From IMG/VR virus record IMGVR_UViG_3300044655_001269, positions 1 through 64,000 of that record: a DNA stretch of 64,000 nucleotides. The stretch is one strand, 5' to 3'. How positions within the stretch are numbered: the first letter of the stretch is position 1; every line of letters starts with the position of its first letter. This document shows positions 390 through 17,217 of the stretch, in pieces. Source of the DNA: a virus. A program made the position numbers and the translations under genes. The notes beneath the pieces are model-generated. The model saw only the letters and a list, made by a program, of their open reading frames with translations. It was not told where the DNA came from and ran no database searches.

Positions 390-426
390 ACTCGCACCTT
401 AACAAAGCACTACGGAGTAATAGACA

Positions 427-710: not shown

Positions 711-746
711 ACTCGCACCTTAACAAAGCACTACGGAGTAAAGACA

Positions 747-1030: not shown

Positions 1031-1066
1031 ATCACCACCTTAACAAAGCACTACGGAGTAAACACA

Positions 1067-1300: not shown

Positions 1301-1320
1301 TAACCTAAGAGGCACTACCA

Positions 1321-1519: not shown

Positions 1520-1554
1520 ATCACCACCTTAACAAGCACTACGGAGTAAATGAA

Positions 1555-2747: not shown

Positions 2748-2748
2748 C

Positions 2749-2907: not shown

Positions 2908-2936
2908 AGCCACAACTTAACAAAGAGGCACTACAG

Positions 2937-3185: not shown

Positions 3186-3186
3186 G

Positions 3187-3215: not shown

Positions 3216-3249
3216 AGACCCACCTTAACAGCACTACGGAGTAAACGAG

Positions 3250-3609: not shown

Positions 3610-3631
3610 CTAACAACTTCACCGTTAACGT

Positions 3632-3653
3632 GCGAACCGCGTTAGCGGTGAGC
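3632..3653 (+). repeat. GCGAG/CGAGC hairpin, copy 3 (co-varied)
   Basis: GCGAA-CCGC-GTTA-GCGG-TGAGC. The outer G-C pair of other copies is replaced by A-T while both G.A mismatches stay, a compensatory change that supports the structure. Confidence 0.65.
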
Positions 3654-3670
3654 TAACAAGGAACGATAAC

Positions 3671-3970
3671 ATGAAGTTTGAAGAAGTAGTAACAAGTCCA
3701 ATGGCGGATTTGTTCCAAGAATACGTTGATAACCATACCAGTGAAACAACCTTTAAGGCGTTGTTGACTGATAATACAGACAGAACCCACTTGTTTATTG
3801 GCGAGGATGTTATCATCATCCCAGCCGCTAAACAAAGAATTTTCGAAGGTAACTTTGGTTTAAAGTACATGAACGCAAAGCATAAGGTACAGATTGGTAA
3901 CTGGCTTATCTATAAAGCCACTGACGAAACCGTAGCAGATATAATCGCAAGAGAGGTAGAAAATGCCTAG
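3671..3970 (+). CDS. phage protein, unknown
   Basis: A 99-residue protein, no membrane segment or cysteines. Its ribosome site is AAGGAACG after the hairpin, not the shared leader. It overlaps gene 3963 by 8 nt, so the two are translationally coupled. Function unknown. Confidence 0.75.
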   Translation: MKFEEVVTSPMADLFQEYVDNHTSETTFKALLTDNTDRTHLFIGEDVIIIPAAKQRIFEGNFGLKYMNAKHKVQIGNWLIYKATDETVADIIAREVENA

Positions 3971-4466
3971 TAGTACAGTTGCATGGGTAAGAGAAGGCGG
4001 TGTCGTTGAATCCGTCTATATCCACGAGGGAAGTCTAAAAGAGGTTGGACGTTATCTTTTAGCCAACATCGACCAAAGTAACATCTCTAAATTGATGTTG
4101 ATTGGAGATAGAGCAGAAATAACGGATGATACTGGTGACCTAGATGAAAGTGAGATACACAAGACACTCAATCATCTTTTAGATGAAACTAATGCTGATT
4201 ATATCTTTATCTATAATCGAATTGGTTTTTGGGAAGTTGCCACTCGTTCGGATAAAACATTGCATAACCTTGAAACGGTACTATTGCAATTAAGCCAAGA
4301 GAACGAGTTTACAACTAAACAAACCGAAGTTGAAATGATTGATGTTGAACAACTCAAGGCAGAAATCATTGATGAACTTATGGAAATCCTACCAGACGTT
4401 ATCTTAGATAAGTTTGATGAACGGATGTATACCATCTTTGGTATCAAGCCAGCAACAAGACACTAA
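3963..4466 (+). CDS. phage protein related to the product at 9305
   Basis: A 167-residue protein whose start (MPSSTVAWVREGGVVESVYIH) matches the pattern of the product at 9305 (MATRSTIAMVLPNGTIQSIY): S-T-x-A-W/M-V, then a turn, then V/I-x-S-I/V-Y-x-H. The C-terminal 60 residues are an extra helical, possibly coiled-coil region (MIDVEQLKAEIIDELMEILP). This is a widespread phage family of unknown function. Overlaps gene 3671. Confidence 0.75.
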   Translation: MPSSTVAWVREGGVVESVYIHEGSLKEVGRYLLANIDQSNISKLMLIGDRAEITDDTGDLDESEIHKTLNHLLDETNADYIFIYNRIGFWEVATRSDKTLHNLETVLLQLSQENEFTTKQTEVEMIDVEQLKAEIIDELMEILPDVILDKFDERMYTIFGIKPATRH

Positions 4467-4471
4467 CAGTT

Positions 4472-4492
4472 TACCCGCTGTGCAGGCGGGTA
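4472..4492 (+). repeat. ACCCGCTG hairpin, copy 1
   Basis: TACCCGC/GCGGGTA, 7 bp, loop TGTGCAG, followed by ACACCTACGCACACGAGG before the next start. Related elements occur near 10140, 14282, 14750, 16237 and 17095. Confidence 0.6.
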
Positions 4493-4515
4493 CACCTACG
4501 CACACGAGGCACTCT

Positions 4516-4692
4516 ATGACAAATTTAAGTAAAGCGATGACTTCAATCGCAACAGGTATGGCACTAGGTTCGATTGGTGACTTAGGTTTAATGACTAGCC
4601 AGTGGTTAACGGCAATTATTGCAATAGCAGTTGGCTTTGGGTTAATCTGTTTCGGTTTTGTTTTATTAGGTACACAGTCATGCGTAAAATAG
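4516..4692 (+). CDS. small hydrophobic membrane protein
   Basis: A 58-residue protein with a strong transmembrane segment near residues 31-51 (LTAIIAIAVGFGLICFGFVLL) and a moderately hydrophobic N-terminal helix. The ATG at 4516 was chosen because it follows the class B-like leader CGAGGCACTCT; upstream ATGs lie inside gene 3963. Its end overlaps the lipoprotein gene at 4680 by 13 nt. A small membrane protein overlapping a lipoprotein resembles lysis cassettes, but identity as a holin or spanin is unproven. Confidence 0.65.
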   Translation: MTNLSKAMTSIATGMALGSIGDLGLMTSQWLTAIIAIAVGFGLICFGFVLLGTQSCVK

Positions 4693-4880
4693 CCTATATA
4701 CTTTTAGTTTCTTTGTATGGTTGCCAAATGCCACCAACAGTAATGATGCCACCACCATACGAAGAACACAGGTCACCACAGTATCTATTACAGCAATACG
4801 CACCACTCAATGGCGCGGCATTAAGAGTATGCTGTGGGCATTTACGGCATTGTTTGCCGCATCAAAGTGATAGGTGCTAA
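4680..4880 (+). CDS. putative small lipoprotein
   Basis: A 66-residue protein with a lipoprotein signal: MRKIAYILLVSLYGC, lipobox LYGC with Cys15, followed by a Pro/Met-rich stretch. The Pro-rich mature part of about 50 residues is like outer-membrane spanins (o-spanins), which are often encoded overlapping an inner-membrane partner, here gene 4516. The assignment is tentative because the membrane partner lacks a clear periplasmic coiled coil. Confidence 0.55.
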   Translation: MRKIAYILLVSLYGCQMPPTVMMPPPYEEHRSPQYLLQQYAPLNGAALRVCCGHLRHCLPHQSDRC

Positions 4881-4881
4881 T

Positions 4882-5145
4882 ATGAACATAAACCCAATAT
4901 CCATTGCTGGTAGTTTTACCAGACACGAAAGTGACTTAGCGCACGTGGCTAAAGCACTAAAAGATAATTTAGACAATAGTATCTTACTAGGTAAAACTCA
5001 AGTGAACAAGGTACACCACCTAGAAGAAGTTGCCAATAAGGTTATACTTGATTCACAAAATACAGATCCTTTTTGGATTAACTCGATTGGTAATCTAGCT
5101 GATATGAGTAGACATAACTACGTTTTTGTTGGTAAAGTTGTTTAA
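4882..5145 (+). CDS. phage protein, unknown
   Basis: An 87-residue soluble protein beginning MNINPISIAGSFTRHESD. The start is the ATG just after the stop of 4680 (an upstream ATG at 4834 lies inside the lipoprotein gene). The segment ALKDNLDNS uses the repeat CTAAAAGATAAT as codons for LKDN. Function unknown. Confidence 0.6.
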   Translation: MNINPISIAGSFTRHESDLAHVAKALKDNLDNSILLGKTQVNKVHHLEEVANKVILDSQNTDPFWINSIGNLADMSRHNYVFVGKVV

Positions 5146-5153
5146 GAAAAAGG

Positions 5154-5182
5154 TTGACAATGGGTACATTCTAAAAGATAAT
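5154..5182 (+). promoter_or_regulatory. promoter of a structured RNA
   Basis: TTGACA, 17 bp, GATAAT, where the -10 is the end of CTAAAAGATAAT. The 12-mer forms the loop of a 9-bp dyad GGGTACATT/AATGTACCC. No gene follows; the transcript would be the RNA at 5189-5338. Confidence 0.75.
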
Positions 5183-5188
5183 GTACCC

Positions 5189-5338
5189 AACTTAGCGAGT
5201 GCCGATAGGCACGAGCCTAAGAGCTATCAGTAAGTGGGTCTGCGGGTGTCCTCAAGCACCCAATACAAGGCTTGAGCCAGTACATTTTTCGTTAATACGT
5301 TAAATCTTAATAATGGTAGACTTACTTACTGATAGTTG
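5189..5338 (+). ncRNA. candidate structured RNA with H-type pseudoknot
   Basis: No reading frame fills the space between 5146 and 5414, yet it has its own promoter. The RNA begins with a GCGAG/CGAGC hairpin (5195-5217). A perfect 12-bp stem then pairs 5224-5235 with 5324-5335. Inside it, GGGTG (5244-5248) pairs with CACCC (5257-5261) and CTCAAG (5251-5256) with CTTGAG (5271-5276); this interleaved order is an H-type pseudoknot. There is no obvious U-tract terminator. The architecture suits a ligand-binding or protein-binding RNA, but no known class is recognised. Confidence 0.6.
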
Positions 5339-5349
5339 AAAAAAAAGAG

Positions 5350-5378
5350 TTGACAACAGGGTACAGAATAACTATACT
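5350..5378 (+). promoter_or_regulatory. early promoter for gene 5415
   Basis: TTGACA, 17 bp, TATACT, with an 8-bp dyad (one mismatch) GGGTACAG/CTATACCC. Confidence 0.85.
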
Positions 5379-5414
5379 ATACCCACCTTAACAAAGCACT
5401 ACGGAGTAAAGACA

Positions 5415-5915
5415 ATGGGTTGGTTATCTTTTAGAAACACTGGCAAACAAGCAGTAGTTAGACAAATTAAATTAGACTATGATGCAATAACTCAATGGTC
5501 GTTGGTTGGCAATAACCTATGGGGTTTGTACACAGTATCACAAAAAGACGTTGATTATAATCCTAACAATGTGTTAGGTCAAAAGGTTATTCTGTTATTC
5601 AGACTTGAATACTTTAAAAACGATAAAGGTTATGGTTATAAAGATATGTGTGAAAGTATGCACCCTTATCAATATAACTGCCCTTTGAAGTTTTTAAAAG
5701 AGGCAACAGTTACTTGCCAAGAGTGGCGCGATGAAGTAGTTAAGTTTCACGAAAGTAACCGTAACTTACGCAAACAGGTTGCTAACTTAATGATTGATGA
5801 CATTATTCAATTAAAGCATTCAAGAATCAAAGAAGTCAAAATTGTATCGGTTAAACCACTTCTAGGTGCTTATGCTGGTGTGGTTTATAAGATACCTAAA
5901 AACATGATTGCATAA
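5415..5915 (+). CDS. DUF6927-like protein
   Basis: A 166-residue protein. It starts MGW and contains GYGYKDMCESMHPYQYNC near residues 74-91, then a C-P-x-x-F-L segment. This matches my recollection of the DUF6927 family (F-G-Y-K-D-M-x-E-S-M-x-P followed by C-P-x-x-I-L), found in phages and plasmids; its function is unknown. A basic helical region follows (ESNRNLRKQVANL). Class A leader with GGAG 10 nt before ATG. WLSFRN near the start encodes one copy of the dispersed repeat on the opposite strand. Confidence 0.75.
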   Translation: MGWLSFRNTGKQAVVRQIKLDYDAITQWSLVGNNLWGLYTVSQKDVDYNPNNVLGQKVILLFRLEYFKNDKGYGYKDMCESMHPYQYNCPLKFLKEATVTCQEWRDEVVKFHESNRNLRKQVANLMIDDIIQLKHSRIKEVKIVSVKPLLGAYAGVVYKIPKNMIA

Positions 5916-5920
5916 AACAG

Positions 5921-5949
5921 TTGACAACTAAAGCGAGTAGTAATATACT
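5921..5949 (+). promoter_or_regulatory. early promoter for gene 5986
   Basis: TTGACA, 17 bp, TATACT, with a 10-bp dyad GCGAGTAGTA/TACTACTCGC as at 361. Confidence 0.85.
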
Positions 5950-5985
5950 ACTCGCACCTTAACAAAGCACTACGGAGTAACAACT

Positions 5986-6189
5986 ATGTTTATCAAAGCA
6001 ACTAAAACAGAAAAACTACGCGGTTCAACTGCAACGCATGAAACATTAGTAATACTAAACACGGCACTCATTAAGTTCATAAGCCTGTCATCTAAAAATT
6101 CAACATTGGTAGTTTATGATAACGATATTGGATTTGAAGTAATGATTCCATACCAAGAATTTTTAGATTTGTTAACCGAAAAAAACTAA
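5986..6189 (+). CDS. small protein, unknown
   Basis: A 67-residue protein with alternating beta strands (ETLVILNTALIKFISLSSKN) suggesting a small barrel. Class A leader. The TAA stop is supplied by CTAAAAGATAAT. Function unknown. Confidence 0.7.
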   Translation: MFIKATKTEKLRGSTATHETLVILNTALIKFISLSSKNSTLVVYDNDIGFEVMIPYQEFLDLLTEKN

Positions 6190-6199
6190 AAGATAATCG

Positions 6200-6228
6200 T
6201 TGACAACTGGGTACAGAACAACTATACT
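6200..6228 (+). promoter_or_regulatory. early promoter for gene 6265
   Basis: TTGACA, 17 bp, TATACT, dyad GGGTACAG/CTGTACCC. Confidence 0.85.
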
Positions 6229-6264
6229 GTACCCACCTTAACAAAGCACTACGGAGTAATAGAC

Positions 6265-6489
6265 ATGACTACAAAAGAAAAAGCAATTAAAATAGCAATT
6301 AACACATTCTTATCTGAATATGATAATGATGCCGTTAAAACGTATGAAATGTTATCAAATGAATTAGCAGATAGTTTTGACTGTATTGATTATGCTACGA
6401 TATGGGAAAAATTTGAAGATGATACTATCAGTGAAGTGGTGGAATATATGGATAATTTAATTGATTCAATAGTCAAAGCGTTTGACTAA
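6265..6489 (+). CDS. small acidic protein, unknown
   Basis: A 74-residue acidic, helical protein (MTTKEKAIKIAINTFLSEYD...). Class A leader with GGAG 9 nt before ATG. The stop TAA lies in the following CTAAAAGATAAT. Function unknown. Confidence 0.7.
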   Translation: MTTKEKAIKIAINTFLSEYDNDAVKTYEMLSNELADSFDCIDYATIWEKFEDDTISEVVEYMDNLIDSIVKAFD

Positions 6490-6499
6490 AAGATAATGC

Positions 6500-6528
6500 T
6501 TGACTTTGGGTACATCATCTTTTAGAAT
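6500..6528 (+). promoter_or_regulatory. early promoter for gene 6565
   Basis: TTGACT, 17 bp, TAGAAT, dyad GGGTACAT/ATGTACCC with CATCTTTTAGA as the loop. Confidence 0.85.
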
Positions 6529-6564
6529 GTACCCACCTTAACAAAGCACTACGGAGTAAAGACC

Positions 6565-6768
6565 ATGTTAGACACAAACGCACAAGGTGATGTGATTGAA
6601 AACTACGGTTTGATTACGCTAAACCATTCTTATTGGGAATGTGAATGTAATGACAATTATGTTAGACCGAAATCTCAATTAGCGTGTAGCAAATGCGATG
6701 CAAATCATGAGGACTGCGCAGACGCATACGAAGAAACCGTACAACGAGAAATATATAAAACGATTTAA
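6565..6768 (+). CDS. small Cys-rich, zinc-ribbon-like protein
   Basis: A 67-residue protein with C-E-C (residues 28 and 30), C-S-K-C (45 and 48) and C54, spaced like a small zinc ribbon. Such proteins often act as nucleic-acid or protein adaptors in phages. Class A leader. The metal-binding reading is inference from cysteine spacing. Confidence 0.7.
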   Translation: MLDTNAQGDVIENYGLITLNHSYWECECNDNYVRPKSQLACSKCDANHEDCADAYEETVQREIYKTI

Positions 6769-6771
6769 TGC

Positions 6772-6800
6772 TTGACAATGGGTACATCATCTTTTAGAAT
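6772..6800 (+). promoter_or_regulatory. early promoter for gene 6835
   Basis: TTGACA, 17 bp, TAGAAT, dyad GGGTACAT/ATGTACCC. Confidence 0.85.
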
Positions 6801-6834
6801 GTACCCACCTTAACAAAACAAAGAGGCACTACAA

Positions 6835-7008
6835 ATGAAAACAGTAAAAGTAACATTCTTGTTAACAGTAAACGATGACCACAAACTAGACTACTGGTTA
6901 CCCGAAGAAATCAACGAAAGATTAACTGGTGATGAAGAAATCTTAGATTATACGATTGAAACAGTCCCAGACGATGTAGAAAGAATTATCACACACGAAG
7001 AATATTAA
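6835..7008 (+). CDS. small acidic protein, unknown
   Basis: A 57-residue acidic protein (MKTVKVTFLLTVNDDHKL..., ending THEEY), a beta strand followed by acidic helices. It has its own promoter and a class B leader (AAGAGGCACTACAA) with AGAGG 9 nt before ATG, which is why it is called although short. Confidence 0.75.
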   Translation: MKTVKVTFLLTVNDDHKLDYWLPEEINERLTGDEEILDYTIETVPDDVERIITHEEY

Positions 7009-7010
7009 AG

Positions 7011-7039
7011 TTGACAAGGTGGTTCTTATATGAGATACT
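7011..7039 (+). promoter_or_regulatory. early promoter for gene 7076
   Basis: TTGACA, 17 bp, GATACT, dyad GTGGTTCT/AGAGCCAC with one G.T. Confidence 0.8.
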
Positions 7040-7075
7040 AGAGCCACTTTAACAAAGCACTACGGAGAATAGAAA

Positions 7076-7258
7076 ATGATTACAATTAAAAACATAGACT
7101 GGGCGTTACTAAGAGAACAAAAAGAATGGTTACTGAACAATGGTTCAGACCACGCAATGGGTTTGGCACACTTCTTAGACTTCATTCAAGATGATGCAGT
7201 AGCCAATCAAGGCTTTAGTATCGATGAAGTGTTTGGTGATTATTTACTAGAAGACTAA
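7076..7258 (+). CDS. small acidic protein, unknown
   Basis: A 60-residue protein (MITIKNIDWALLREQKEWLL...), helical and acidic. The leader is GCACTACGGAGAATAGAAA with GGAG 9 nt before ATG. The stop lies in CTAAAAGATAAT. Function unknown. Confidence 0.7.
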   Translation: MITIKNIDWALLREQKEWLLNNGSDHAMGLAHFLDFIQDDAVANQGFSIDEVFGDYLLED

Positions 7259-7268
7259 AAGATAATGC

Positions 7269-7297
7269 TTGACTTTGGGTACATTCGCCTTTACAAT
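7269..7297 (+). promoter_or_regulatory. early promoter for gene 7334
   Basis: TTGACT, 17 bp, TACAAT, 9-bp dyad GGGTACATT/AATGTACCC. Confidence 0.85.
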
Positions 7298-7333
7298 GTA
7301 CCCACCTTAACAAAGCACTACGGAGTAAAGACA

Positions 7334-7717
7334 ATGGCATACATTAGCAAAGAACAAAAAGAGTTGAAAGCAGTAAGATTAAGAGCATTAGCAAAAGAAT
7401 ACGGTATCAAAGCAACTGTGGCGCGTAAACATTGCTACACCATCGTTCTTAATATACAAGGTGGTAAAATCGACTTCTATGGCGCGTTAAAAGAAGTAGA
7501 CAGTAACTACAGCAAAGATTATATACAAGTCAATCCTTATTGGTTAGACGACCAGTTTAACAAAGGCGTTGCACACGAGTTCTTGACTAAAGCACTTGAA
7601 ATCATGAATGAAGGCAACTATGATAATAGTGACATTATGACAGATTATCACGATAGAGGCTGGTATGTTGACATCAATGTTGGACAGTGGAACAAAGCAT
7701 ACGCATTAGCGGCTTAA
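7334..7717 (+). CDS. phage protein, unknown
   Basis: A 127-residue protein starting MAYISKEQKELKAVRLRALA, with a basic N-terminal helix that could contact nucleic acid, then an alpha/beta domain ending in aromatic residues (GWYVDINVGQW). The start follows the class A leader; an upstream in-frame start at 7265 lies in the promoter and is rejected. Similar MAYISKEQK proteins occur in many phages without known function. Confidence 0.75.
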   Translation: MAYISKEQKELKAVRLRALAKEYGIKATVARKHCYTIVLNIQGGKIDFYGALKEVDSNYSKDYIQVNPYWLDDQFNKGVAHEFLTKALEIMNEGNYDNSDIMTDYHDRGWYVDINVGQWNKAYALAA

Positions 7718-7725
7718 TATATAAC

Positions 7726-7754
7726 TTGACAATGTGGTGATTATCTTTTAGACT
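7726..7754 (+). promoter_or_regulatory. early promoter for gene 7789
   Basis: TTGACA, 17 bp, TAGACT, dyad GTGGTGAT/ATCACCAC with TTATCTTTTAG in the loop. Confidence 0.85.
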
Positions 7755-7788
7755 ATCACCACCTTAACAAAGCAAAGAGGCACTACAA

Positions 7789-8034
7789 ATGAAAATCTAT
7801 ACAATAACATTAACAGAAAATGCAGTAGAAAGAATATTTGACCTTATCAGTCATGTTAGAGGCACAGAGTATCTAGCATTCATTGATGAAACTGTAACTG
7901 AATTGGAAATACCTTTGAATGCTGATGACAATGAACGTGTTGAACAAGCATTGAATGATACTGAATTTAGCCACCCTTACTTATGGGCAGTAATTGCAAA
8001 ACGTGCATTAGATGAACAATTAACAAACCAATAA
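7789..8034 (+). CDS. small acidic protein, paralogue of gene 747
   Basis: An 81-residue acidic protein (MKIYTITLTENAVERIFDLI...) sharing with the product of 747 the ITLTE opening, an acidic centre and a final helix (AVIAKRALDEQ). Class B leader (AAGAGGCACTACAA). Function unknown; duplication is inferred from the shared pattern only. Confidence 0.75.
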   Translation: MKIYTITLTENAVERIFDLISHVRGTEYLAFIDETVTELEIPLNADDNERVEQALNDTEFSHPYLWAVIAKRALDEQLTNQ

Positions 8035-8074
8035 AACACTCACTGCCAAGGACGGCAACCCTAAAAGATAATGC

Positions 8075-8103
8075 TTGACAATATTGCAATTATCTTTTAG
8101 AAT
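8075..8103 (+). promoter_or_regulatory. promoter of tRNA-Met and hairpin-RNA transcript
   Basis: TTGACA, 17 bp, TAGAAT, flanked by CTAAAAGATAAT (8061) and containing ATTATCTTTTAG (8089). It reads into tRNA-Met, a 46-codon gene and the antisense hairpins. Confidence 0.8.
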
Positions 8104-8110
8104 ATACAAA

Positions 8111-8187
8111 TGCCATTATAGCATAACGGTTAATGCCGCGTACTCATAATGCGTAAGATCGGGGTTCGAATCCCTGTAATGGCACCA
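8111..8187 (+). tRNA. tRNA-Met (CAT)
   Basis: A full cloverleaf: acceptor TGCCATT/AATGGCA, anticodon loop CTCATAA (anticodon CAT), T-arm with GGTTCGAATCCC, and an encoded CCA. The anticodon stem has two G.T pairs. CAT could also be lysidine-modified and read Ile AUA; the first pair T-A is unlike an initiator. The tRNA starts about 8 nt after the -10, so it is the 5' end of its transcript. Confidence 0.9.
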
Positions 8188-8208
8188 ACTAACATAAAGG
8201 TAAAGACA

Positions 8209-8349
8209 ATGACAGCAAAAAGCAAATTAAAGATAAGACAAGCAAAACGTGAACAATTCGTTGAAGACTACATAAGATACTTTCTATCCACTGGCATTGC
8301 GTTGAATAGAACCCAGTCAAAGAAAGTAATCAAACAGTTTTACTCTTAA
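8209..8349 (+). CDS. small basic protein, unknown
   Basis: A 46-residue, strongly basic protein (MTAKSKLKIRQAKREQFVED..., about 12 Lys/Arg), predicted helical and possibly nucleic-acid binding. It follows the tRNA with ribosome site AAAGGTAAAG and precedes the antisense-loop RNA in the same transcript. The second such RNA (13.6 kb) also follows a small basic protein gene. Confidence 0.65.
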   Translation: MTAKSKLKIRQAKREQFVEDYIRYFLSTGIALNRTQSKKVIKQFYS

Positions 8350-8361
8350 GGGAGAAAGAAC

Positions 8362-8496
8362 ATGAACCAGATAATTCGTTGTGTTAAGGTAGTACCCGTC
8401 AATACAGGAGTAGTGCCTTGTATTGGCAACCCAGATAGATTAGCAGGAGTAGTGCCTTGCGGATCTATCACCCAAAGGAGGCTAGTATCGGAGTAG
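8362..8496 (+). CDS. possible 44-residue peptide over the hairpin RNA
   Basis: An ATG behind a good site (AAGGGAGAAAGAAC) opens 44 codons with repeated GVVPC segments, ending at TAG in the third hairpin loop. The repeats arise because the RNA motif GGAGTAGTGCCTTG is read in the same frame twice. The palindromic stems explain the sequence better than coding constraint, so this may be a leader peptide or not translated at all. Confidence 0.3.
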   Translation: MNQIIRCVKVVPVNTGVVPCIGNPDRLAGVVPCGSITQRRLVSE

Positions 8497-8560
8497 TGCC
8501 TGATATTAGCACCTGATGTACTCTCACCTCGCCCAGTTCTTGTAGCTGGGCATTTTTTTG
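8395..8560 (+). ncRNA. antisense-loop RNA, locus 1 (three hairpins)
   Basis: Three successive hairpins with unrelated stems present the same apex: GG-AGTAGTG-CC with a bulged T on the 3' side. They lie at 8400-8425 (CAATACA/TGTATTG), 8434-8469 (GATAGAT/ATCTATC plus GCA/TGC) and 8481-8510 (GCTAGTATC/GATATTAGC). The common string GTAGTGCCT is the exact complement of AGGCACTAC, the class B translation leader, and GTAGTGC complements GCACTAC in class A leaders. An intrinsic terminator follows. I infer a trans-acting regulator or sponge for early mRNAs. Confidence 0.7.
8531..8559 (+). terminator. intrinsic terminator
   Basis: GCCCAG-TTCTTGTAG-CTGGGC followed by ATTTTTTTG. It ends the tRNA-Met/hairpin-RNA transcript. 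Confidence 0.85.
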
Positions 8561-8573
8561 TCTAGGAGATTAT

Positions 8574-9236
8574 ATGAAGATAACAGAAAAGAAACAATAC
8601 TGCTACGATATGTTAAATTCCAAGGTCGAATTGGATACTAACTGGTTAATACAAGAAGTGTTTAGTAACCATGAAAATTGGGACTTAAAATGCGGAGATG
8701 GTGTGTCGCATATATCAATAGCCAAATCACCAAACCATCCGACTAAATGTTTTTATATCCATCGTGTTGACGGTACGTTTACTGATATAGGAATAGGTGC
8801 GGCATTATCACCACCAAAGCCATATCAGAAAATTGCAATGGCTTGCAGAACCGCAATACTTCCTAGTATAGACCTATTCCGAGAAACCGTTAATTATGGT
8901 AAACAACAATGTACAATAACCAATACCGTGTTAACACGGGATAATTCACACATAGACCATCATACACCACAGTTTAACGAGATAGTCAAAGATTGGATAG
9001 CTAACGCATCATTTACTTACGATGACCTTGTGTTTATTGTCGATAAAGCCATTGATAAAAACGTCGATAACAGTAGTATAACATCATTCACTAATCAAGA
9101 ATTAGCAAATGATTTTAGAAAGTATCATGATTCCGTTGCAGTTCTTAGGTGTATAACTGGTAAAGAGAATCTCAGACGCGAGAAAACAACTGCATTAGCT
9201 GACCATTTTACTATTCTTAAAAATAGTAAAAGATAA
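8574..9236 (+). CDS. DUF3223 (DCL)-like protein
   Basis: A 220-residue protein. The N-terminal part (MLNSKVEL near 13-20; GVSHISIAKS; KCFYIHRVDGTFTDIG near 58-73) matches the DUF3223 pattern in which G-I-x-x-F/I-x-V is followed by C-F-x-I-x-R-x-D-G-x-x-x-D. The second half has the family's R-x-T-V...C-x-I-T-N region and an HIDHHTPQF motif near residues 126-134, which resembles a histidine metal site, so an HNH-like nuclease role is possible but unproven. It follows the terminator at 8531 with ribosome site AGGAGATTAT. It ends in SKR-stop encoded by GTAAAAGATAAT. Confidence 0.65.
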   Translation: MKITEKKQYCYDMLNSKVELDTNWLIQEVFSNHENWDLKCGDGVSHISIAKSPNHPTKCFYIHRVDGTFTDIGIGAALSPPKPYQKIAMACRTAILPSIDLFRETVNYGKQQCTITNTVLTRDNSHIDHHTPQFNEIVKDWIANASFTYDDLVFIVDKAIDKNVDNSSITSFTNQELANDFRKYHDSVAVLRCITGKENLRREKTTALADHFTILKNSKR

Positions 9237-9239
9237 TAG

Positions 9240-9268
9240 TTGACAACTGGGTATAGTTCAACTATACT
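9240..9268 (+). promoter_or_regulatory. early promoter for gene 9305
   Basis: TTGACA, 17 bp, TATACT, dyad GGGTATAG/CTATACCC. Confidence 0.85.
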
Positions 9269-9304
9269 ATACCCACCTTAACAAAGCACTACGGAGTAAT
9301 TAAA

Positions 9305-9718
9305 ATGGCAACAAGAAGCACAATCGCAATGGTATTACCAAACGGAACAATTCAATCAATTTACTGCCACTGGGACGGCTACCTAGACGGGGTAGGTCAA
9401 ACCTTAGCAGAACACTACAACAAAAGAAAAACAATCCAACTACTTGCCAATGGTGACGTTAGTTCACTAAAAGATTTCGTAGGACATAAGCATGACTTCA
9501 ACCGTTCAGTTAAAGTCAAAAGCACCACGTTCTATGGACGTGATAGAGGCGAAACTGGCATTGAAAGTCGTAACCATGCCAATGTAGATGAATGGCTTAG
9601 ATTCCGTGATGGTGGCGAATACTTCTACCTGCTACAAGGCAAACAATGGTGGTATTGCAACTGCTATGATGTAACAGAACTAACACCAATAGTTATTGGA
9701 TTATTAACAAAAGACTAA
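9305..9718 (+). CDS. conserved phage protein (MATRSTIAM family)
   Basis: A 137-residue protein of a widespread phage family of unknown function, recognised by its start MATRSTIAMVLPNGTIQSIY and the following CHWDGYLDGVGQTLAEHY. The central and C-terminal parts carry many aromatics (KQWWYCNCYDV). Class A leader. A divergent relative is encoded at 3963. Confidence 0.8.
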   Translation: MATRSTIAMVLPNGTIQSIYCHWDGYLDGVGQTLAEHYNKRKTIQLLANGDVSSLKDFVGHKHDFNRSVKVKSTTFYGRDRGETGIESRNHANVDEWLRFRDGGEYFYLLQGKQWWYCNCYDVTELTPIVIGLLTKD

Positions 9719-9728
9719 AAGATAATAG

Positions 9729-9757
9729 TTGACAACTGGGTATAGTTCAACTATACT
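9729..9757 (+). promoter_or_regulatory. early promoter for gene 9793
   Basis: TTGACA, 17 bp, TATACT, dyad GGGTATAG/CTATACCC; nearly identical to the promoter at 9240. Confidence 0.85.
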
Positions 9758-9792
9758 ATACCCACCTTAACAAGCACTACGGAGTAAACAAC

Positions 9793-10104
9793 ATGAAAGC
9801 ATACCTAGACCAACTCGTAATGGTGAACGTATTAGACTATAACCGTTCAGAATGGCAAGATGATATATCTTACTACCAAATCAACAAAGGTTTTCAAATC
9901 GCAGTAGTTAAAAATGACAAACAACACACAGTTGATAAGTTTCAGTTTGATTACGAAACAGACGTTGTAACTGTACAAACAACGTCAGAAGTCGATAATG
10001 GCGAATGGGACGGTGAATGGTACTTGGAATTTGACGACATAACACCAGACCAACTTATCATTGAACGAGTAACCAGAGTTACCCTAGAAGAACTACAAGG
10101 GTAA
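9793..10104 (+). CDS. phage protein, unknown
   Basis: A 103-residue acidic protein rich in beta strands, ending in a short helix (VTLEELQG). Class A leader with an AACAAG variant. Its stop lies in the first base pairs of a 16-bp hairpin (10103-10143). Function unknown. Confidence 0.75.
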   Translation: MKAYLDQLVMVNVLDYNRSEWQDDISYYQINKGFQIAVVKNDKQHTVDKFQFDYETDVVTVQTTSEVDNGEWDGEWYLEFDDITPDQLIIERVTRVTLEELQG

Positions 10105-10143
10105 AGTGGCTAAAAGATAACTCAATCATCTTTTAGCCACTTT
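10103..10143 (+). terminator. 16-bp hairpin built from an inverted pair of the 12-mer
   Basis: AAAGTGGCTAAAAGAT pairs perfectly with ATCTTTTAGCCACTTT around a 9-nt loop. It could end or stabilise the transcript. No U-tract follows; ACCCGCTGTGA does. The stem core is one copy of the dispersed repeat in each orientation. Confidence 0.55.
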
Positions 10144-10189
10144 ACCCGCTGTGACATAACACACCTATACGTACACGAGAGAGCAACCA

Positions 10190-10399
10190 ATGGAAAACGC
10201 ACCCGAACTAGCCGCCACTATCATTTTTGCATTGATAATGCTATCTATATTCGCAACAGTGCTAACCTTATTCATTAAGGTTGCTTTCTGGTTTGTTATG
10301 GTCGGATTGCTTATCTTTGGTACGGTCGGAATCATTGGCAGTGGTGGCGCGGGATACCTAGTCATGTTAGCTGTCGGATATTACCTGTTCAAAAGATAA
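10190..10399 (+). CDS. small membrane protein, two or three segments
   Basis: A 69-residue, very hydrophobic protein with segments near residues 8-28 (LAATIIFALIMLSIFATVLT), 30-46 and 52-65, ending in LFKR. It lacks a promoter of its own and follows the ACCCGCTG element (TACCCGCTGTGACATAACAC). It probably inserts in the host inner membrane. Function unknown; its size and hydropathy would also fit a holin-like protein. Confidence 0.65.
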   Translation: MENAPELAATIIFALIMLSIFATVLTLFIKVAFWFVMVGLLIFGTVGIIGSGGAGYLVMLAVGYYLFKR

Positions 10400-10403
10400 C
10401 ACA

Positions 10404-10535
10404 ATGAAAACAATAATTGCAATACAATCAATCATCATAATAACACTTTTAGCCATGTTGACAATGACAGTCGAGTATGATAACATTCTTCTCGAACCTG
10501 TTAACTTAAACGGGATAATGATTTACCCAACATAG
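10404..10535 (+). CDS. small single-pass membrane protein
   Basis: A 43-residue protein: MKTIIAIQSIIIITLLAMLT forms an N-terminal anchor, followed by about 22 polar residues. It starts 4 nt after the previous stop, within the same transcript. Too short for standard gene callers, it is supported by tight spacing and a plausible topology. Confidence 0.55.
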   Translation: MKTIIAIQSIIIITLLAMLTMTVEYDNILLEPVNLNGIMIYPT

Positions 10536-10544
10536 AGGCAACCC

Positions 10545-10733
10545 ATGTGTAGAAGAACCGATGGACTAACCCAGTTTGAAGTCTACTTCGAGAAGTACGA
10601 TTACAACTTCACTAAACGTACCATTACCCAGTATGATTATATTACTATATCAGATGAAGACAATGCAAGAAAGATGGCTCATTATAAACACGGTAGTGCG
10701 ATTAACATAATCCATGTTAAACCAGCAGACTAA
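10545..10733 (+). CDS. small basic protein, unknown
   Basis: A 62-residue basic protein (MCRRTDGLTQFEVYFEKYDY...) with a beta-strand pattern and a central acidic helix. Ribosome site AGAGGCAACCC. It belongs to the operon starting upstream of 10190. Function unknown. Confidence 0.65.
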   Translation: MCRRTDGLTQFEVYFEKYDYNFTKRTITQYDYITISDEDNARKMAHYKHGSAINIIHVKPAD

Positions 10734-10745
10734 AGATTATATTAT

Positions 10746-10765
10746 GCGAGCGCGTTAGCGCGAGC
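10746..10765 (+). repeat. GCGAG/CGAGC hairpin, copy 4
   Basis: GCGAG-CGC-GTTA-GCG-CGAGC, 17 nt before the ATG of gene 10782, which has its own AAAGGAGAA site. Confidence 0.6.
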
Positions 10766-10781
10766 TGTAAAAGGAGAAACC

Positions 10782-11027
10782 ATGAACGTACTAGATCGCA
10801 TGAAAACAGACATCAACTCAGTGATAGGCTTAACACTTAGCCTAGACTTAGGAGGTTCAAAGCCTATCATTGGCGAAGTAGTCAATACCAAGCAAAGCGA
10901 ATGGAATAACCTCATAGACGGTGTAATGACTACGTGGTACTCGTATTCAGTATCTTTTGGCGACTGTTGTTATTATCCTGTAGATTGTTTAACGAAAGTT
11001 GTTGACAATGTAGGCATAAACGATTAA
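10782..11027 (+). CDS. phage protein, unknown
   Basis: An 81-residue protein with a beta-rich, glycine-containing core (GLTLSLDLGGSKPIIGEVVN). It has a strong ribosome site (AAAGGAGAAACC) behind a GCGAG hairpin. Its 3' end contains the next promoter (TTGACA at 11002). Function unknown. Confidence 0.7.
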   Translation: MNVLDRMKTDINSVIGLTLSLDLGGSKPIIGEVVNTKQSEWNNLIDGVMTTWYSYSVSFGDCCYYPVDCLTKVVDNVGIND

Positions 11028-11030
11028 ACT
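11002..11030 (+). promoter_or_regulatory. early promoter for gene 11067
   Basis: TTGACA, 17 bp, TAAACT, inside the end of gene 10782. No dyad. Confidence 0.75.
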
Positions 11031-11066
11031 ATACCCACCTTAACAAAGCACTACGGAGATACAAAG

Positions 11067-11261
11067 ATGAGCGCATTAACTACACCAGAACAAATCAACA
11101 GATTCCAGTTATTAACCTTGAAATCAGCACTTGGATTAGAAATCAAAGGATTGAAAGGTCGTGGAAAATCAGCAAACACAGTAGCTTGCCAGCTACTAGG
11201 ATTACCAAAAGGCACGAAGAAAACAATTACATACGCATACTTAGTGCAAGCAATAGGATAA
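11067..11261 (+). CDS. small basic protein, unknown
   Basis: A 64-residue basic protein (MSALTTPEQINRFQLLTLKS...GLKGRGKSANTVACQLLGLP). This pattern is recurrent in many phages, without known function; the helix-turn-like GRGKSANTVACQLLG could bind DNA. Leader GCACTACGGAGATACAAAG. Confidence 0.75.
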   Translation: MSALTTPEQINRFQLLTLKSALGLEIKGLKGRGKSANTVACQLLGLPKGTKKTITYAYLVQAIG

Positions 11262-11267
11262 AAAGAG

Positions 11268-11296
11268 TTGACAACTGGGTACATTGAGAATACAAT
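11268..11296 (+). promoter_or_regulatory. early promoter for gene 11333
   Basis: TTGACA, 17 bp, TACAAT, 9-bp dyad GGGTACATT/AATGTACCC. Confidence 0.85.
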
Positions 11297-11332
11297 GTAC
11301 CCACCTTAACAAAGCACTACAGGACAAACAAA

Positions 11333-11521
11333 ATGATTATCTTACTCGTATCACTTTACTTCACACCAGTTGACATGAACAACGATACACCAACTAAGGT
11401 GGCGCGTAACTTCACAACCACTGCTGAATGCGAATCCTACAAAGCACAAATTACACCAGCATTAAACCACGCATTAGAAGAAGGTTTAATCGGATACGCG
11501 GCAACCTGCCAATCAAAATAA
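11333..11521 (+). CDS. small protein, possible exported peptide
   Basis: A 62-residue protein with a short hydrophobic start (MIILLVSLYFTPV) and two Cys (C30 and C59) that could be bonded outside the cytoplasm. The hydrophobic stretch is short for a signal peptide, so export is uncertain. Leader class C, GCACTACAGGA. Confidence 0.65.
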   Translation: MIILLVSLYFTPVDMNNDTPTKVARNFTTTAECESYKAQITPALNHALEEGLIGYAATCQSK

Positions 11522-11524
11522 TAG

Positions 11525-11553
11525 TTGACAACTGGGTACAGAACAACTATACT
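11525..11553 (+). promoter_or_regulatory. early promoter for gene 11588
   Basis: TTGACA, 17 bp, TATACT, dyad GGGTACAG/CTGTACCC. Confidence 0.85.
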
Positions 11554-11587
11554 GTACCCACTTTAACAAAACCAAGAGGCACTACAA

Positions 11588-11746
11588 ATGAAAGAACTAT
11601 TCCCATATCAATTTAACTTCATCGGTATGTACGGTACAGAAGAAACTATCGTTATCAACGCGCAATCATCGACCAAAGCAAACGAGTTATTCGAGCAGTT
11701 CTTCCCATACGCAACCGAAGTAGAATTAGTTAAAGACTTCGCATAA
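11588..11746 (+). CDS. small protein, unknown
   Basis: A 52-residue protein (MKELFPYQFNFIGMYGTEET...), a short strand-helix-strand unit with acidic C-terminus. Own promoter and class B leader (CAAGAGGCACTACAA) justify the call despite its length. Function unknown. Confidence 0.7.
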   Translation: MKELFPYQFNFIGMYGTEETIVINAQSSTKANELFEQFFPYATEVELVKDFA

Positions 11747-11753
11747 AAAAGAT

Positions 11754-11783
11754 TTGACAACTGGGTACATTCGCCTTTATAAT
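11754..11783 (+). promoter_or_regulatory. early promoter for gene 11814
   Basis: TTGACA, 18 bp, TATAAT, 9-bp dyad GGGTACATT/AATGTACCC. Confidence 0.85.
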
Positions 11784-11813
11784 GTACCCACCTTAACCAA
11801 AAAGAGAAAAACA

Positions 11814-12032
11814 ATGAAAGAAATCATAACATCAATCATCTTATCAGTAATCACCTTAGCAAGTGCTTACTTTATCTATAGAGCAGTAGAACCAACAGTA
11901 GGCTATCAAGTAGGTTTCTGCAAAACTCTGTATAAAGGCAATAACGATAAGATAAACCAATGCCTAGACAACTATGACGAAATGCACAACCGTACTGGCA
12001 TCTATGACGAAAATGGCAAACCAGTACAATAA
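11814..12032 (+). CDS. small membrane-anchored protein
   Basis: A 72-residue protein with an N-terminal membrane segment (ITSIILSVITLASAYFIY, residues 4-21) and an outside domain with two Cys (C35, C49). The ATG follows AAAGAGAAAAAC; the leader lacks GCACTAC. Function unknown. Confidence 0.7.
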   Translation: MKEIITSIILSVITLASAYFIYRAVEPTVGYQVGFCKTLYKGNNDKINQCLDNYDEMHNRTGIYDENGKPVQ

Positions 12033-12037
12033 AACAG

Positions 12038-12066
12038 TTGACAATGAAGTAATTATCTTTTAGAAT
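12038..12066 (+). promoter_or_regulatory. early promoter for gene 12100
   Basis: TTGACA, 17 bp, TAGAAT, spacer containing ATTATCTTTTAG. Dyad weak. Confidence 0.8.
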
Positions 12067-12099
12067 ATAACCACCTTAACAAAGCACTGGAGTATTACA

Positions 12100-12276
12100 A
12101 TGAGCATCTATCAAGAAAATGGCTACCAAAACCGCAAAGACTACTTGAATAACCTAGCAGATGACTTTGGCATCGACCGCGAAACAGTCTTCTTCTACGC
12201 AAGTACACTCGGCCCAGATGAAGACTTTGACGGCTTAGTTACAAACCTTGAAGACTTAATGCTAGAAGACCACTAA
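12100..12276 (+). CDS. small acidic protein, unknown
   Basis: A 58-residue acidic protein (MSIYQENGYQNRKDYLNNLA...), predicted all-helical. The leader is a variant with GCACTGGAG (the ACG of GCACTACGGAG is missing), so it lacks the full antisense target. Function unknown. Confidence 0.7.
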   Translation: MSIYQENGYQNRKDYLNNLADDFGIDRETVFFYASTLGPDEDFDGLVTNLEDLMLEDH

Positions 12277-12283
12277 AAAACAA

Positions 12284-12312
12284 TTGACAAATCTCGCGGG
12301 TAGGCATATACT
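12284..12312 (+). promoter_or_regulatory. early promoter for gene 12348
   Basis: TTGACA, 17 bp, TATACT, dyad GCGGGTAG/CTACCCGC. Confidence 0.85.
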
Positions 12313-12347
12313 ACCCGCACCTTAACAAAACCAAGAGGCACTACCAA

Positions 12348-12506
12348 ATGAATATTGAACAATTAAGAGACGAATTAGTCGATGATGCACTAGATACCTG
12401 TTTAGAAGACGTTGGATACTTGAAAAGCATTTTACAAAGTTACTTTGCCATCGAAACCGAAGACCGTATCATACAACTACATAACGAAGCATTTGGCGAT
12501 AGATAA
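12348..12506 (+). CDS. small acidic protein, unknown
   Basis: A 52-residue acidic helical protein (MNIEQLRDELVDDALDTCLE...). Own promoter and class B leader (CAAGAGGCACTACCAA). Function unknown. Confidence 0.7.
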   Translation: MNIEQLRDELVDDALDTCLEDVGYLKSILQSYFAIETEDRIIQLHNEAFGDR

Positions 12507-12532
12507 CTAAAAGATAACTCAATGCAAGGCTT

Positions 12533-12552
12533 GCGAGCGCAAAGCGCGAGCC
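12533..12552 (+). repeat. GCGAG/CGAGC hairpin, copy 5
   Basis: GCGAG-CGC-AAA-GCG-CGAGCC, extended by CAAGGC/GCCTTG-type flanks, 20 nt before the ATG of gene 12573. Confidence 0.6.
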
Positions 12553-12572
12553 TTGTAATCAAGAGAACGACC

Positions 12573-13184
12573 ATGAGAATAAAAGACTTAACAGAAATGT
12601 CAATAGCAGCATACGGTGAATGGGACGCGGATTTAGCCTATACAGATATTACAATGGGATATATGAAAAACAAATACACCCACGTCGGTACTATCCATGC
12701 GGCAGACCAAGACTTTCATATCTACAAATTAAGCAACTTCTTTGAATATGTCATCGGTTTCGTAGCAGATACCTACGACATTAACCACGAAGACATAAGA
12801 ACCAAGTTTAAAGTATCTGCTGAAATGAGCCTTGAAAAAATGCAAGACTTTGAACATTATAGTAACATACTAAGCGTTAAAGCCGTCAAGGTGGTCAGTA
12901 AATTGCGAAGTCGTGGTATCGCACCAGAAATCTATAAATTCTTCATTAACGCAGGTTATACGCTAATGGGTGGCGAAGAACAATACTACGGTGCAAGATT
13001 ACTATGGAAGAAGTTTAGCAACTCACCAATTTACCAAGTAGACATTGTAGACATTGCAACTAACACCATACTAGAAACCAATGTTAAATTACACCACGGT
13101 GAAGAAGACTACGACTTCGACCAAAGAGTTTGGGCTTATACCCCAGAAAAGAAAGACATTAGATTGATTCTAACTAAAAGATAA
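12573..13184 (+). CDS. phage protein, unknown
   Basis: A 203-residue protein with mixed alpha/beta content; no recognised motif. The ATG follows AAGAGAACGACC, and upstream in-frame codons run through the hairpin and are rejected. The last codons (TKR-stop) are supplied by the repeat CTAAAAGATAAT. It has no promoter of its own and is read through from 12284. Confidence 0.75.
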   Translation: MRIKDLTEMSIAAYGEWDADLAYTDITMGYMKNKYTHVGTIHAADQDFHIYKLSNFFEYVIGFVADTYDINHEDIRTKFKVSAEMSLEKMQDFEHYSNILSVKAVKVVSKLRSRGIAPEIYKFFINAGYTLMGGEEQYYGARLLWKKFSNSPIYQVDIVDIATNTILETNVKLHHGEEDYDFDQRVWAYTPEKKDIRLILTKR

Positions 13185-13187
13185 TAC

Positions 13188-13216
13188 TTGACAGTGCGTT
13201 AATTATCTTTTAGAAT
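13188..13216 (+). promoter_or_regulatory. early promoter for genes 13250 and 13514
   Basis: TTGACA, 17 bp, TAGAAT, spacer with ATTATCTTTTAG. Short dyad GTGC/GCAC. Confidence 0.8.
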
Positions 13217-13249
13217 AGCACCACCTTAACAAAACAAGAGGCACTACCC

Positions 13250-13438
13250 ATGAGTAACTACAGTCCAATTACCATTGATATGTACGAAGTCCTAACCCTA
13301 GAAGGTAGAATGAGATTACTTGACTATGTAGTAAGAGATTTAGAACAATACAGCGAAAGTTTAGAATACCAATTAGAACTAGATAACCTACAAGACGATT
13401 TAAAACCAGTAGTAAACCAGTTATTAAAACAGTTATAA
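13250..13438 (+). CDS. small acidic protein, unknown
   Basis: A 62-residue acidic, leucine-rich helical protein (possible coiled coil SLEYQLELDNLQDDLKP). Class B leader (CAAGAGGCACTACCC). Followed by a GCGAG hairpin and the small gene at 13514. Confidence 0.7.
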   Translation: MSNYSPITIDMYEVLTLEGRMRLLDYVVRDLEQYSESLEYQLELDNLQDDLKPVVNQLLKQL

Positions 13439-13459
13439 ACAAATAGGTATGTTAGGCTC

Positions 13460-13479: not shown

Positions 13480-13513
13480 TTGTACACCCCTTAAAACACA
13501 AATAGGCACTACC

Positions 13514-13642
13514 ATGAACAAACAACCTAAACCAAAAGAAACAGTCAAAGACCTAGCCAAACAGCTCGGATTCGACAACAAAACAATCCAGCTACTAAGC
13601 GCGGCAACCATTGGCAAAACAAATCCAAAATTCAAAGTGTAG
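13514..13642 (+). CDS. small basic protein, unknown
   Basis: A 42-residue basic protein (MNKQPKPKETVKDLAKQLGF...) whose middle resembles a short helix-turn-helix (VKDLAKQLGFDNKTIQLLS). The leader is AATAGGCACTACC. Its GTG-TAG end forms the string GTAGTGC, the same antisense sequence as in the hairpins downstream. It precedes the second antisense RNA just as gene 8209 precedes the first. Confidence 0.65.
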   Translation: MNKQPKPKETVKDLAKQLGFDNKTIQLLSAATIGKTNPKFKV

Positions 13643-13768
13643 TGCAAATCCACTGGGCATGGAAACCTAACCAACGCCCAGTAACAAGGTGGTCAATGCG
13701 GGAGTAGTGACCCTAGTATACCACCACTGAAACAACCTAACAGAAGTAGTGCTCTGTTAGGTTTTTCT
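13639..13768 (+). ncRNA. antisense-loop RNA, locus 2
   Basis: After GTAGTGC (13639-13645) come three hairpins. The first is 13652-13682 (ACTGGGC/GCCCAGT). The second is 13688-13725 (GGTGGT/ACCACC with apex GGG-AGTAGTGA-CCC). The third is 13734-13763, a perfect 11-bp stem AACCTAACAGA/TCTGTTAGGTT with loop AGTAGTGC followed by TTTC and TTTTTC. The last is both an intrinsic terminator and an antisense loop: GTAGTGCT complements AGCACTAC, present in every class A leader. I infer the same regulatory role as locus 1. Confidence 0.7.
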
Positions 13769-13769
13769 T
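13734..13769 (+). terminator. intrinsic terminator with antisense loop
   Basis: An 11-bp perfect stem followed by a T-rich tract (GTTTTTCTTTTTC). It ends the transcript from 13188. Confidence 0.85.
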
Positions 13770-13786
13770 TTTCTAAAAGATAATGC

Positions 13787-13815: not shown

Positions 13816-13851
13816 ATACCCAACTTAACAAGCACTACCGGAGCAAAAACC

Positions 13852-14274: not shown

Positions 14275-14281
14275 AATTCAC

Positions 14282-14845: not shown

Positions 14846-14883
14846 GTACCCACCTTAACAAAAGCACTACAGGAAACAACGCT

Positions 14884-15112: not shown

Positions 15113-15151
15113 ATTGCCAACTTAAACAAAAGCACTACAGGAATTAAGACA

Positions 15152-15440: not shown

Positions 15441-15478
15441 ATAACCTCACTAAACAACAGCACTACAGGAAATTTAAA

Positions 15479-15863: not shown

Positions 15864-15899
15864 ATAACCTCACTAAACAAGCACTACAGGAAACAAACA

Positions 15900-16312: not shown

Positions 16313-16346
16313 ATACCCACCTTAACAGCACTACGGAGTAAACATC

Positions 16347-17180: not shown

Positions 17181-17217
17181 ATACCCACCTTAACAAAAGC
17201 ACTACAGGATTCAAACC

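Follow-up and report, generated by a model that had tools for sequence, protein, structure and literature searches.

The window analysed here comprises positions 1 to 64,000 of the 71.8-kb viral record IMGVR_UViG_3300044655_001269 from IMG/VR; it is regarded as a piece of a large myophage because it carries genes for a DnaB-type helicase, a T4-like terminase large subunit, a tail sheath and UvsX. Bases 1-18000 are an early-type region in which short genes are numerous; most of these have a TTGACA...TATAAT-like promoter of their own and a short leader. Within this region we examined a group of hairpins at 8395-8560, whose loops are antisense to the leaders of the early genes, and a second locus of the same kind at 13639-13775, which the first-pass annotation of the window had overlooked. 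The features of both loci and the leaders are listed in Table 1.

The first locus combines an early-type promoter, a tRNA-Met, a 46-amino acid (aa) open reading frame (ORF) whose leader lacks GCACTAC, three hairpins and an intrinsic terminator. The 71.8-kb record contains exactly three copies of the string GGAGTAGTGCC, at 8407, 8446 and 8490; this string is all that the three hairpins (8400-8510) have in common, their stems being otherwise different. This bears out the earlier description of three hairpins with the same apex and differing stems. Each loop, AGTAGTGC, is antisense to GCACTAC. The RNA folds into the three stem-loops and the terminator with a predicted energy of -68 kcal/mol, compared with -50.6 +/- 4.3 kcal/mol for shuffled sequences (z = -4.1). 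The 9-nucleotide (nt) complement to the class B leader, claimed from the letters of the window, is exact in all three hairpins. The seven nucleotides GTAGTGC are freely accessible, with opening costs of ~0.5 kcal/mol, whereas opening out to the bulged T of GTAGTGCCT costs ~5.4 kcal/mol. The proposed pairing of this T with the Shine-Dalgarno sequence is thus possible as part of a 9-nt duplex but is not the default, because the GG/CC stem must open. The folding models therefore point to the 7-nt seed GTAGTGC as the core of pairing, with a possible extension to the bulged T. The promoter, tRNA-Met and terminator of the proposed co-transcript are all present, and the tRNA and the hairpins would be transcribed together.

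No other 7-mer in the window is as strongly enriched upstream of starts as the address of these loops: GCACTAC occurs in 38 copies, compared with 5.3 expected. It was found in 30 leaders, which matches the "some 30" early mRNAs estimated before. In 22 of them (class A) GCACTAC is followed by GGAG or AGGA and then ATG, and the other eight (class B) read AGGCACTAC, with the ATG 1-6 nt further on. ORFs from 35-40 aa upward were taken for all start and leader counts in this study, so these counts include spurious starts.

The second RNA presents its antisense sites at 13639, 13704 and 13746, in an unpaired segment, a hairpin apex and a terminator loop, respectively. Six of the eight plus-strand GTAGTG words of the early region fall in the two RNAs.

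Table 1. Coordinates in the window of the two hairpin loci and of the early-gene leaders that they match
Feature	Position	Strand	Basis or remark
Early-type promoter of the hairpin transcript, TTGACA-N17-TAGAAT	8075..8103	+	consensus match; use inferred
tRNA-Met (cat), 5' part of putative transcript	8112..8187	+	ARAGORN, Rfam tRNA
Small ORF, 46 aa, between tRNA and hairpins	8209..8349	+	kept in G001
ORF, 44 aa, over hairpins 1-2 and part of 3	8362..8496	+	sequence
Hairpin 1, CAATACAGG-AGTAGTGC-CTTGTATTG	8400..8425	+	fold; loop opening cost 0.57 kcal/mol
Hairpin 2, loop AGTAGTG, imperfect stem	8434..8469	+	fold; loop opening cost 0.56 kcal/mol
Hairpin 3, GCTAGTATCGG-AGTAGTG-CCTGATATTAGC	8481..8510	+	fold
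Intrinsic terminator, GCCCAGTT-CTTGT-AGCTGGGC-A-T7	8531..8558	+	fold; identical in G001
Class B ORF, 42 aa, 3' region is second RNA	13514..13642	+	sequence
Second RNA site 1, unpaired GTAGTGC across stop codon of ORF 13514-13642	13639..13645	+	kept in G001
Second RNA site 2, hairpin with apex GGG-AGTAGTGA-CCC	13688..13725	+	kept in G001
Second RNA site 3, terminator AACCTAACAGA-AGTAGTGC-TCTGTTAGGTT-TTTC, loop AGTAGTGC	13734..13775	+	kept in G001
Class A leader GCACTAC, then GGAG and ATG	407..413	+	sequence
Class A leader motif	728..734	+	
Class A leader motif	1048..1054	+	
Class B leader AGGCACTAC	1310..1318	+	55 nt upstream without promoter
Class A leader motif	1536..1542	+	
Class B leader AGGCACTAC	2926..2934	+	
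Class A leader motif	3231..3237	+	
Class A leader motif	5396..5402	+	
Class A leader motif	5967..5973	+	
Class A leader motif	6246..6252	+	
Class A leader motif	6546..6552	+	
Class B leader	6824..6832	+	
Class A leader motif	7057..7063	+	
Class A leader motif	7315..7321	+	
Class B leader	7778..7786	+	
Class A leader motif	9286..9292	+	
Class A leader motif	9774..9780	+	
Class A leader motif	11048..11054	+	
Class A leader motif	11314..11320	+	
Class B leader	11577..11585	+	
Class B leader	12336..12344	+	
Class B leader	13239..13247	+	
Class B leader	13504..13512	+	55 nt upstream without promoter
Class A leader motif	13832..13838	+	
Class A leader motif	14864..14870	+	
Class A leader motif	15132..15138	+	
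Class A leader motif	15460..15466	+	
Class A leader motif	15881..15887	+	
Class A leader motif	16328..16334	+	
Class A leader motif	17199..17205	+	

The correspondence between loops and leaders was also recovered de novo, using a strand-aware scan for enriched leader 7-mers whose reverse complement sits in hairpin loops. GCACTAC ranked first in the window, where four of the eight reverse-complement sites lie in loops (p = 7e-4), and four of six such sites do so in the related contig G001 (p = 2.4e-4). In the cultured jumbo phages PA5oct, XaC1 and RaK2, the scan returned nothing outstanding given the number of words tested. Predicted net pairing of the window RNA with its own leaders was -7.5 kcal/mol, compared with -3.5 for shuffled leaders, -2.3 for minus-strand starts and -4.0 for the leaders of the contig G017; hairpin 3 was the best predicted pairing site for all 29 leaders tested. 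Conversely, the G017 hairpin reached -9.7 kcal/mol with its own leaders and -1.3 kcal/mol with those of the window. By these predictions, pairing exceeds that of shuffled controls, as expected, and is specific to the cognate leader set.

The closest relative, G001 (IMG/VR contig 3300044644_001125, 327 kb), has at least 40 GCACTAC leaders and both RNAs. Around 8110-8570 the window and G001 are near-identical up to the terminator and unrelated after it, which marks the terminator as the end of the unit. The block from promoter through tRNA and hairpins to terminator is conserved, the promoter differing in its spacer only. The 44-aa ORF that overlaps the hairpins shows five differences in G001, a small number of sites, and all five change the amino acid; it is thus not evidently under protein selection and probably not a conserved protein. 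The gene that follows the unit (8574-9236) encodes a DUF3223 domain, and a protein search with it gave no match. Unrelated sequence takes its place in G001, so that the terminator is also a boundary of exchange.

More distant relatives were found among contigs that share the terminase. They have comparable early regions, from which TTAACA..GCACTAC leaders are absent save for scattered single matches, and their leaders instead read AGGAGCGAAnATG. Hairpins on their early strand have the apex CCG-ATTCGCTCC-CGG, which is antisense to GGAGCGA(A). A pattern scan for this loop and a downstream T-run revealed at least 66 distinct contexts. In most cases the hairpin directly follows the stop codon of gene A (~101 aa), gene B (~91 aa) or gene C (a 295-aa AAA-type ATPase), all three of them early genes, and closely precedes a terminator; some of the hairpins are themselves the terminator. 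In contigs with ATTCGCTCC hairpins, 247 of the 759 GGAG...ATG leaders continue with CGA. The leaders of genes A and B mostly differ from GGAGCGA (AGAGGTAA, AAGGAAAC), which would largely spare their transcripts from the RNA that these carry, and the leader of gene C is usually GGAGCGA; genes A and B thus look excluded from self-targeting, and gene C does not. Genes A and B were absent from the cultured phage records searched, and the ATPase gene is common in them, in more distant form. The copy of gene C in G001 has no hairpin. A glutamine riboswitch aptamer (RF01739, 56 bits) was observed on the minus strand of one relative's phage contig (L355, 2266-2314).

The stems of these hairpins are hypervariable yet covarying, and the loop is invariant. 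When 43 distinct hairpins were folded with their own flanks, the energy was -11.7 kcal/mol compared with -6.3 kcal/mol for swapped flanks, a difference that none of 2000 permutations reached. In an alignment of 43 gene-B hairpins, 87.4% of cells were paired, compared with 70.0 +/- 1.4% after shuffling (0 of 500 shuffles), and the outer helix was 82% paired. The same alignment contains 70 double-changed cells compared with 24.7 in shuffles (0 of 500), and its covariation score of 0.395 exceeds both the shuffled value (0.118; 0 of 500) and, by far, every slid register; the invariance of the core follows from the way the set was selected, but the covariation of the outer stem does not. Among loci retrieved by protein or by whole genome, and not by loop, ATTCGCTCC lies within a 3-bp stem in 44 of 68 contexts, compared with 32 of 664 for shuffled 9-mers. 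The inner stem around the unchanged loop is variously CCG/CGG, CTG/CAG, AGG/CCT, GTG/CAC or GGA/TCT. Covarying stems around a fixed loop, which the first-pass annotation proposed to look for in related phages, are thus present, with ATTCGCTCC in place of the window's loop.

A third pair was found at gene C loci without GGAGCGA leaders, where hairpins with the apex GGGTAGTGTCC accompany leaders containing ACACTA(ACA), to which the loops GGTAGTGT correspond. Next to these hairpins there is often a loop complementary to GGAGCAA or GGAGCGG, together with an unpaired TGTTAGTG. Among the 77 sampled loci are 15 with the ACACTA-type hairpin and 42 with the ATTCGCTCC hairpin, and no contig has both. 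ACACTA precedes 66 of 560 starts in the former and 30 of 1101 in the latter (Fisher 6e-13), whereas GGAGCGA precedes 5 of 560 and 115 of 1101, respectively (Fisher 6e-16); per-locus rank tests of leader type against loop type gave 3e-5 for ACACTA and 2e-7 for GGAGCGA. The contig L482 is intermediate, its GCACTA leaders being joined to a UAGUGU loop by a G.U pair, so that one intermolecular pair appears as A-U (ACACTA/UAGUGU), as G.U (L482) and as G-C (window). Judged from these sequences, the GTAGTGC/GCACTAC pair looks like a variant of the ACACTA pair, and the series reads as intermolecular covariation among related contigs, with few events. Independent change of loop and leader in relatives would have spoken against an antisense role, and the opposite was found: G001 keeps both and the others change both. 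At three loci (L506, L508 and L511), in contigs without GGAGCGA leaders, another conserved hairpin with small variations, AAGATGGG-ATGATTGCCTAGTAAACAACTCCG-CCCATCTT, lies 3' of the ATPase gene and is possibly a further variant with its own target.

Based on these comparisons, we consider it likely that the RNAs at 8395-8560 and 13639-13775 act in trans as antisense RNAs masking early ribosome sites and, in the same judgement, that a family with at least three alleles exists in uncultured huge phages of freshwater type, the pair in the window being one of them. The comparison reveals hairpins, accessible loops, exact complementarity and a joint difference of loop and leader, and the proposed pairing is well supported; the transcripts, their timing and the repression we infer. 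Three traits expected of antisense-loop RNAs are present, namely a stable stem-loop with a single-stranded seed, complementarity to the ribosome-site region beyond chance and, through few independent events, covariation of seed and target between relatives. In the proposed mechanism, two copies of a phage regulatory RNA element display the fixed seed AGUAGUGC on stem-loops and at one unpaired site, antisense to GCACUAC, the address beside the Shine-Dalgarno sequence of ~30 early phage mRNAs. The RNA would be transcribed together with the early genes and would pair in trans through kissing contacts between loop and leader; this pairing would block 30S binding and might expose the duplex to RNase III, and the whole early set would be lowered once enough RNA had accumulated. 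With multiple loops on each RNA and multiple RNAs in each genome, the dose against ~30 targets would be higher. The wider proposal, to which we give an even chance, is of a widespread and undescribed class of phage RNAs with an invariant "key" loop on hypervariable stems, placed after early-gene stops and in terminators and addressing the early regulon through a leader "lock". Key and lock would drift jointly, giving each lineage its own early shut-off without cross-reaction with co-infecting relatives.

Several observations weigh against an antisense role. The relatives, which are metagenomic contigs, are not independent samples, and the switches of loop and leader may amount to only two or three events. 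The ACACTA pair spans 6 nt, and ACACTA also precedes 5.4% of starts in the contigs that showed neither hairpin. The class A match of 7 nt only is moderate for repression in trans without a chaperone. The ORF at 13514 that hosts the second RNA is itself a target-type gene. Finally, the de novo scan flagged no pair in G006, G014, G017 and G031, presumably because reverse complements of their Shine-Dalgarno-like leader abound genome-wide.

The same pairing could also have another outcome, in that the RNA protects or activates early mRNAs, or that the leaders are sponges titrating an RNA whose real target lies elsewhere (host mRNAs or another phage RNA). Complementarity alone does not give the sign of the effect, the position of GCACTAC close to the predicted 5' end of the leaders means that pairing might protect them from decay, and the hairpins are apparently made with the early genes. 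However, the duplexes would lie on or beside the Shine-Dalgarno sequence (GGAGCGA itself; AGGCACTAC; GCACTAC abutting GGAG), where pairing normally blocks initiation, and ~30 addressed leaders per few hairpins suit control of a regulon more than sponging, so we hold this outcome to be unlikely. Ribosomal RNA was rejected as a shared target because that of E. coli holds no GGAGCGA, although its 23S rRNA has AGGCACTAC (near 1528).

That GCACTAC and its reverse complement are protein-binding sites in DNA, the loop matches being opposite-strand copies, would agree with the fairly constant distance of the class A motif downstream of strong early promoters. We nevertheless judge it very unlikely, since the motif keeps its place beside the start codon where a promoter is absent (1310, 13504 and an example in G001), its position relative to the promoter shifts between classes A and B, and the copies in hairpins are found on the early RNA strand, within loops whose stems covary. 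A sponge for the host translational regulator CsrA/RsmA is suggested by the GGA in the hairpins and by hairpin 1, which reads ACAGGAGT, close to the CsrA consensus; half of the GGA lies within the stem, though, and GGA is lacking from the relatives' ATTCGCTCC loops and the terminator loop of the second RNA (GAAGTAGTGC), both of which keep antisense complementarity. The multiple apical GGA loops conserved among relatives that mark CsrB-type RNAs were not found, and this role seems highly improbable. It is barely credible that the hairpins are a chance product of the GVVPC repeats of a small protein (ORF 8362-8496): an ORF with a plausible start does span hairpins 1-2, and the exact double-hairpin pattern recurs in viral contigs, besides G001, in tandem coding repeats only, but hairpin 3 is out of frame, each of the five G001 differences alters the amino acid, and most of the relatives' hairpins come after a stop codon.

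Other features of the window were noted. Many early promoters (373-17200) contain a perfect palindrome across the -35/-10 spacer, with letters that vary among promoters (GCGAGTAGT..ACTACTCGC, GGTGATAG..CTATCACC, TGGGTACA..TGTACCCA and GGTTATAA..TTATAACC), a pattern that suggests several operator types on one promoter design. The hairpin GGCTCGCG-AGCGCAACG-CGCGAGCC or a close variant recurs at 1276-1300, 12525-12555 and 13454-13480, two copies lying directly upstream of promoterless class B leaders, and is perhaps a processing or termination signal. A 20-bp inverted repeat with a 9-nt loop (gggtaaagtggctaaaagat / atcttttagccactttaccc) occupies 10099-10147. The terminase large subunit (50721-57318) is split into two ORFs (phrog_36964 profile positions 20-522 and 522-871) with ~3.5 kb between them, and this insert contains, on the opposite strand, a Polynucleobacter-1 RNA (RF01718, 75 bits) at 54520-54669. 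The RNA is listed for Burkholderiales and for fresh water and estuary (PMC2864571), and the match hints at a host from fresh water.

Phages shut off their early genes by promoters, sigma factors and nucleases, and in T4 by the RegA protein. Rfam 15 gave no match at the hairpins of the window or at ten relative loci, and the DNA of the locus matched cultured phages in the tRNA only and plasmids nowhere. The leader pattern was not found in GTDB genomes, nor was a description of such RNAs found in the open-licence literature. If the proposal is correct, an RNA controlling ~30 genes through a single seed and a single address would add a new level to phage development and provide a simple case from nature in which seed and target co-evolve throughout a regulon. 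A lock and key of 7-9 nt that differ between lineages make the idea testable with reporters. The result also suggests a search rule for regulatory RNAs in uncultured phages, namely an invariant loop on a variable stem, antisense to the commonest leader word.

Among known systems, LhrC and RNAIII appear nearest by mechanism and T4 RegA by role, and c4 is the compared case among phage RNAs; none is claimed as a homologue, the likeness being one of function. The LhrC small RNAs of Listeria have three redundant sites that pair with ribosome sites, the terminator loop included (PMC4132741), and the RNA at 13639-13775 has exactly these three kinds of site. LhrC is, however, bacterial and CU-rich and pairs with the G-rich Shine-Dalgarno region, whereas the phage seed fits a dedicated address common to the early genes, and both differ together among lineages. 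In RNAIII of Staphylococcus aureus, conserved hairpin loops act on several mRNAs via loop contacts and ribosome-site duplexes (PMC2837412). Such use of hairpin loops on multiple mRNAs is what we propose for the phage RNAs, but RNAIII is a single long host RNA with generic C-rich loops and not a small cassette with variable stems. The c4 RNA maintains immunity against an antirepressor operon. This antisense RNA of phages P1 and P7 carries its target-pairing sequences in loops (PMC12197685), as the phage-encoded RNAs described here would, but it is not addressed to ~30 separately transcribed early genes. RegA of T4 competes with ribosomes at ~30 early and middle mRNA initiation sites (PMC3014915). 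A search for the RegA family (PF01818) gave no match in G001, G006, G014, G017, G031 or PA5oct, a control search being equally silent. The resemblance lies in one phage regulator acting at ~30 initiation sites; RegA is a protein with degenerate AU-rich sites, whereas the regulator proposed here would be an RNA.
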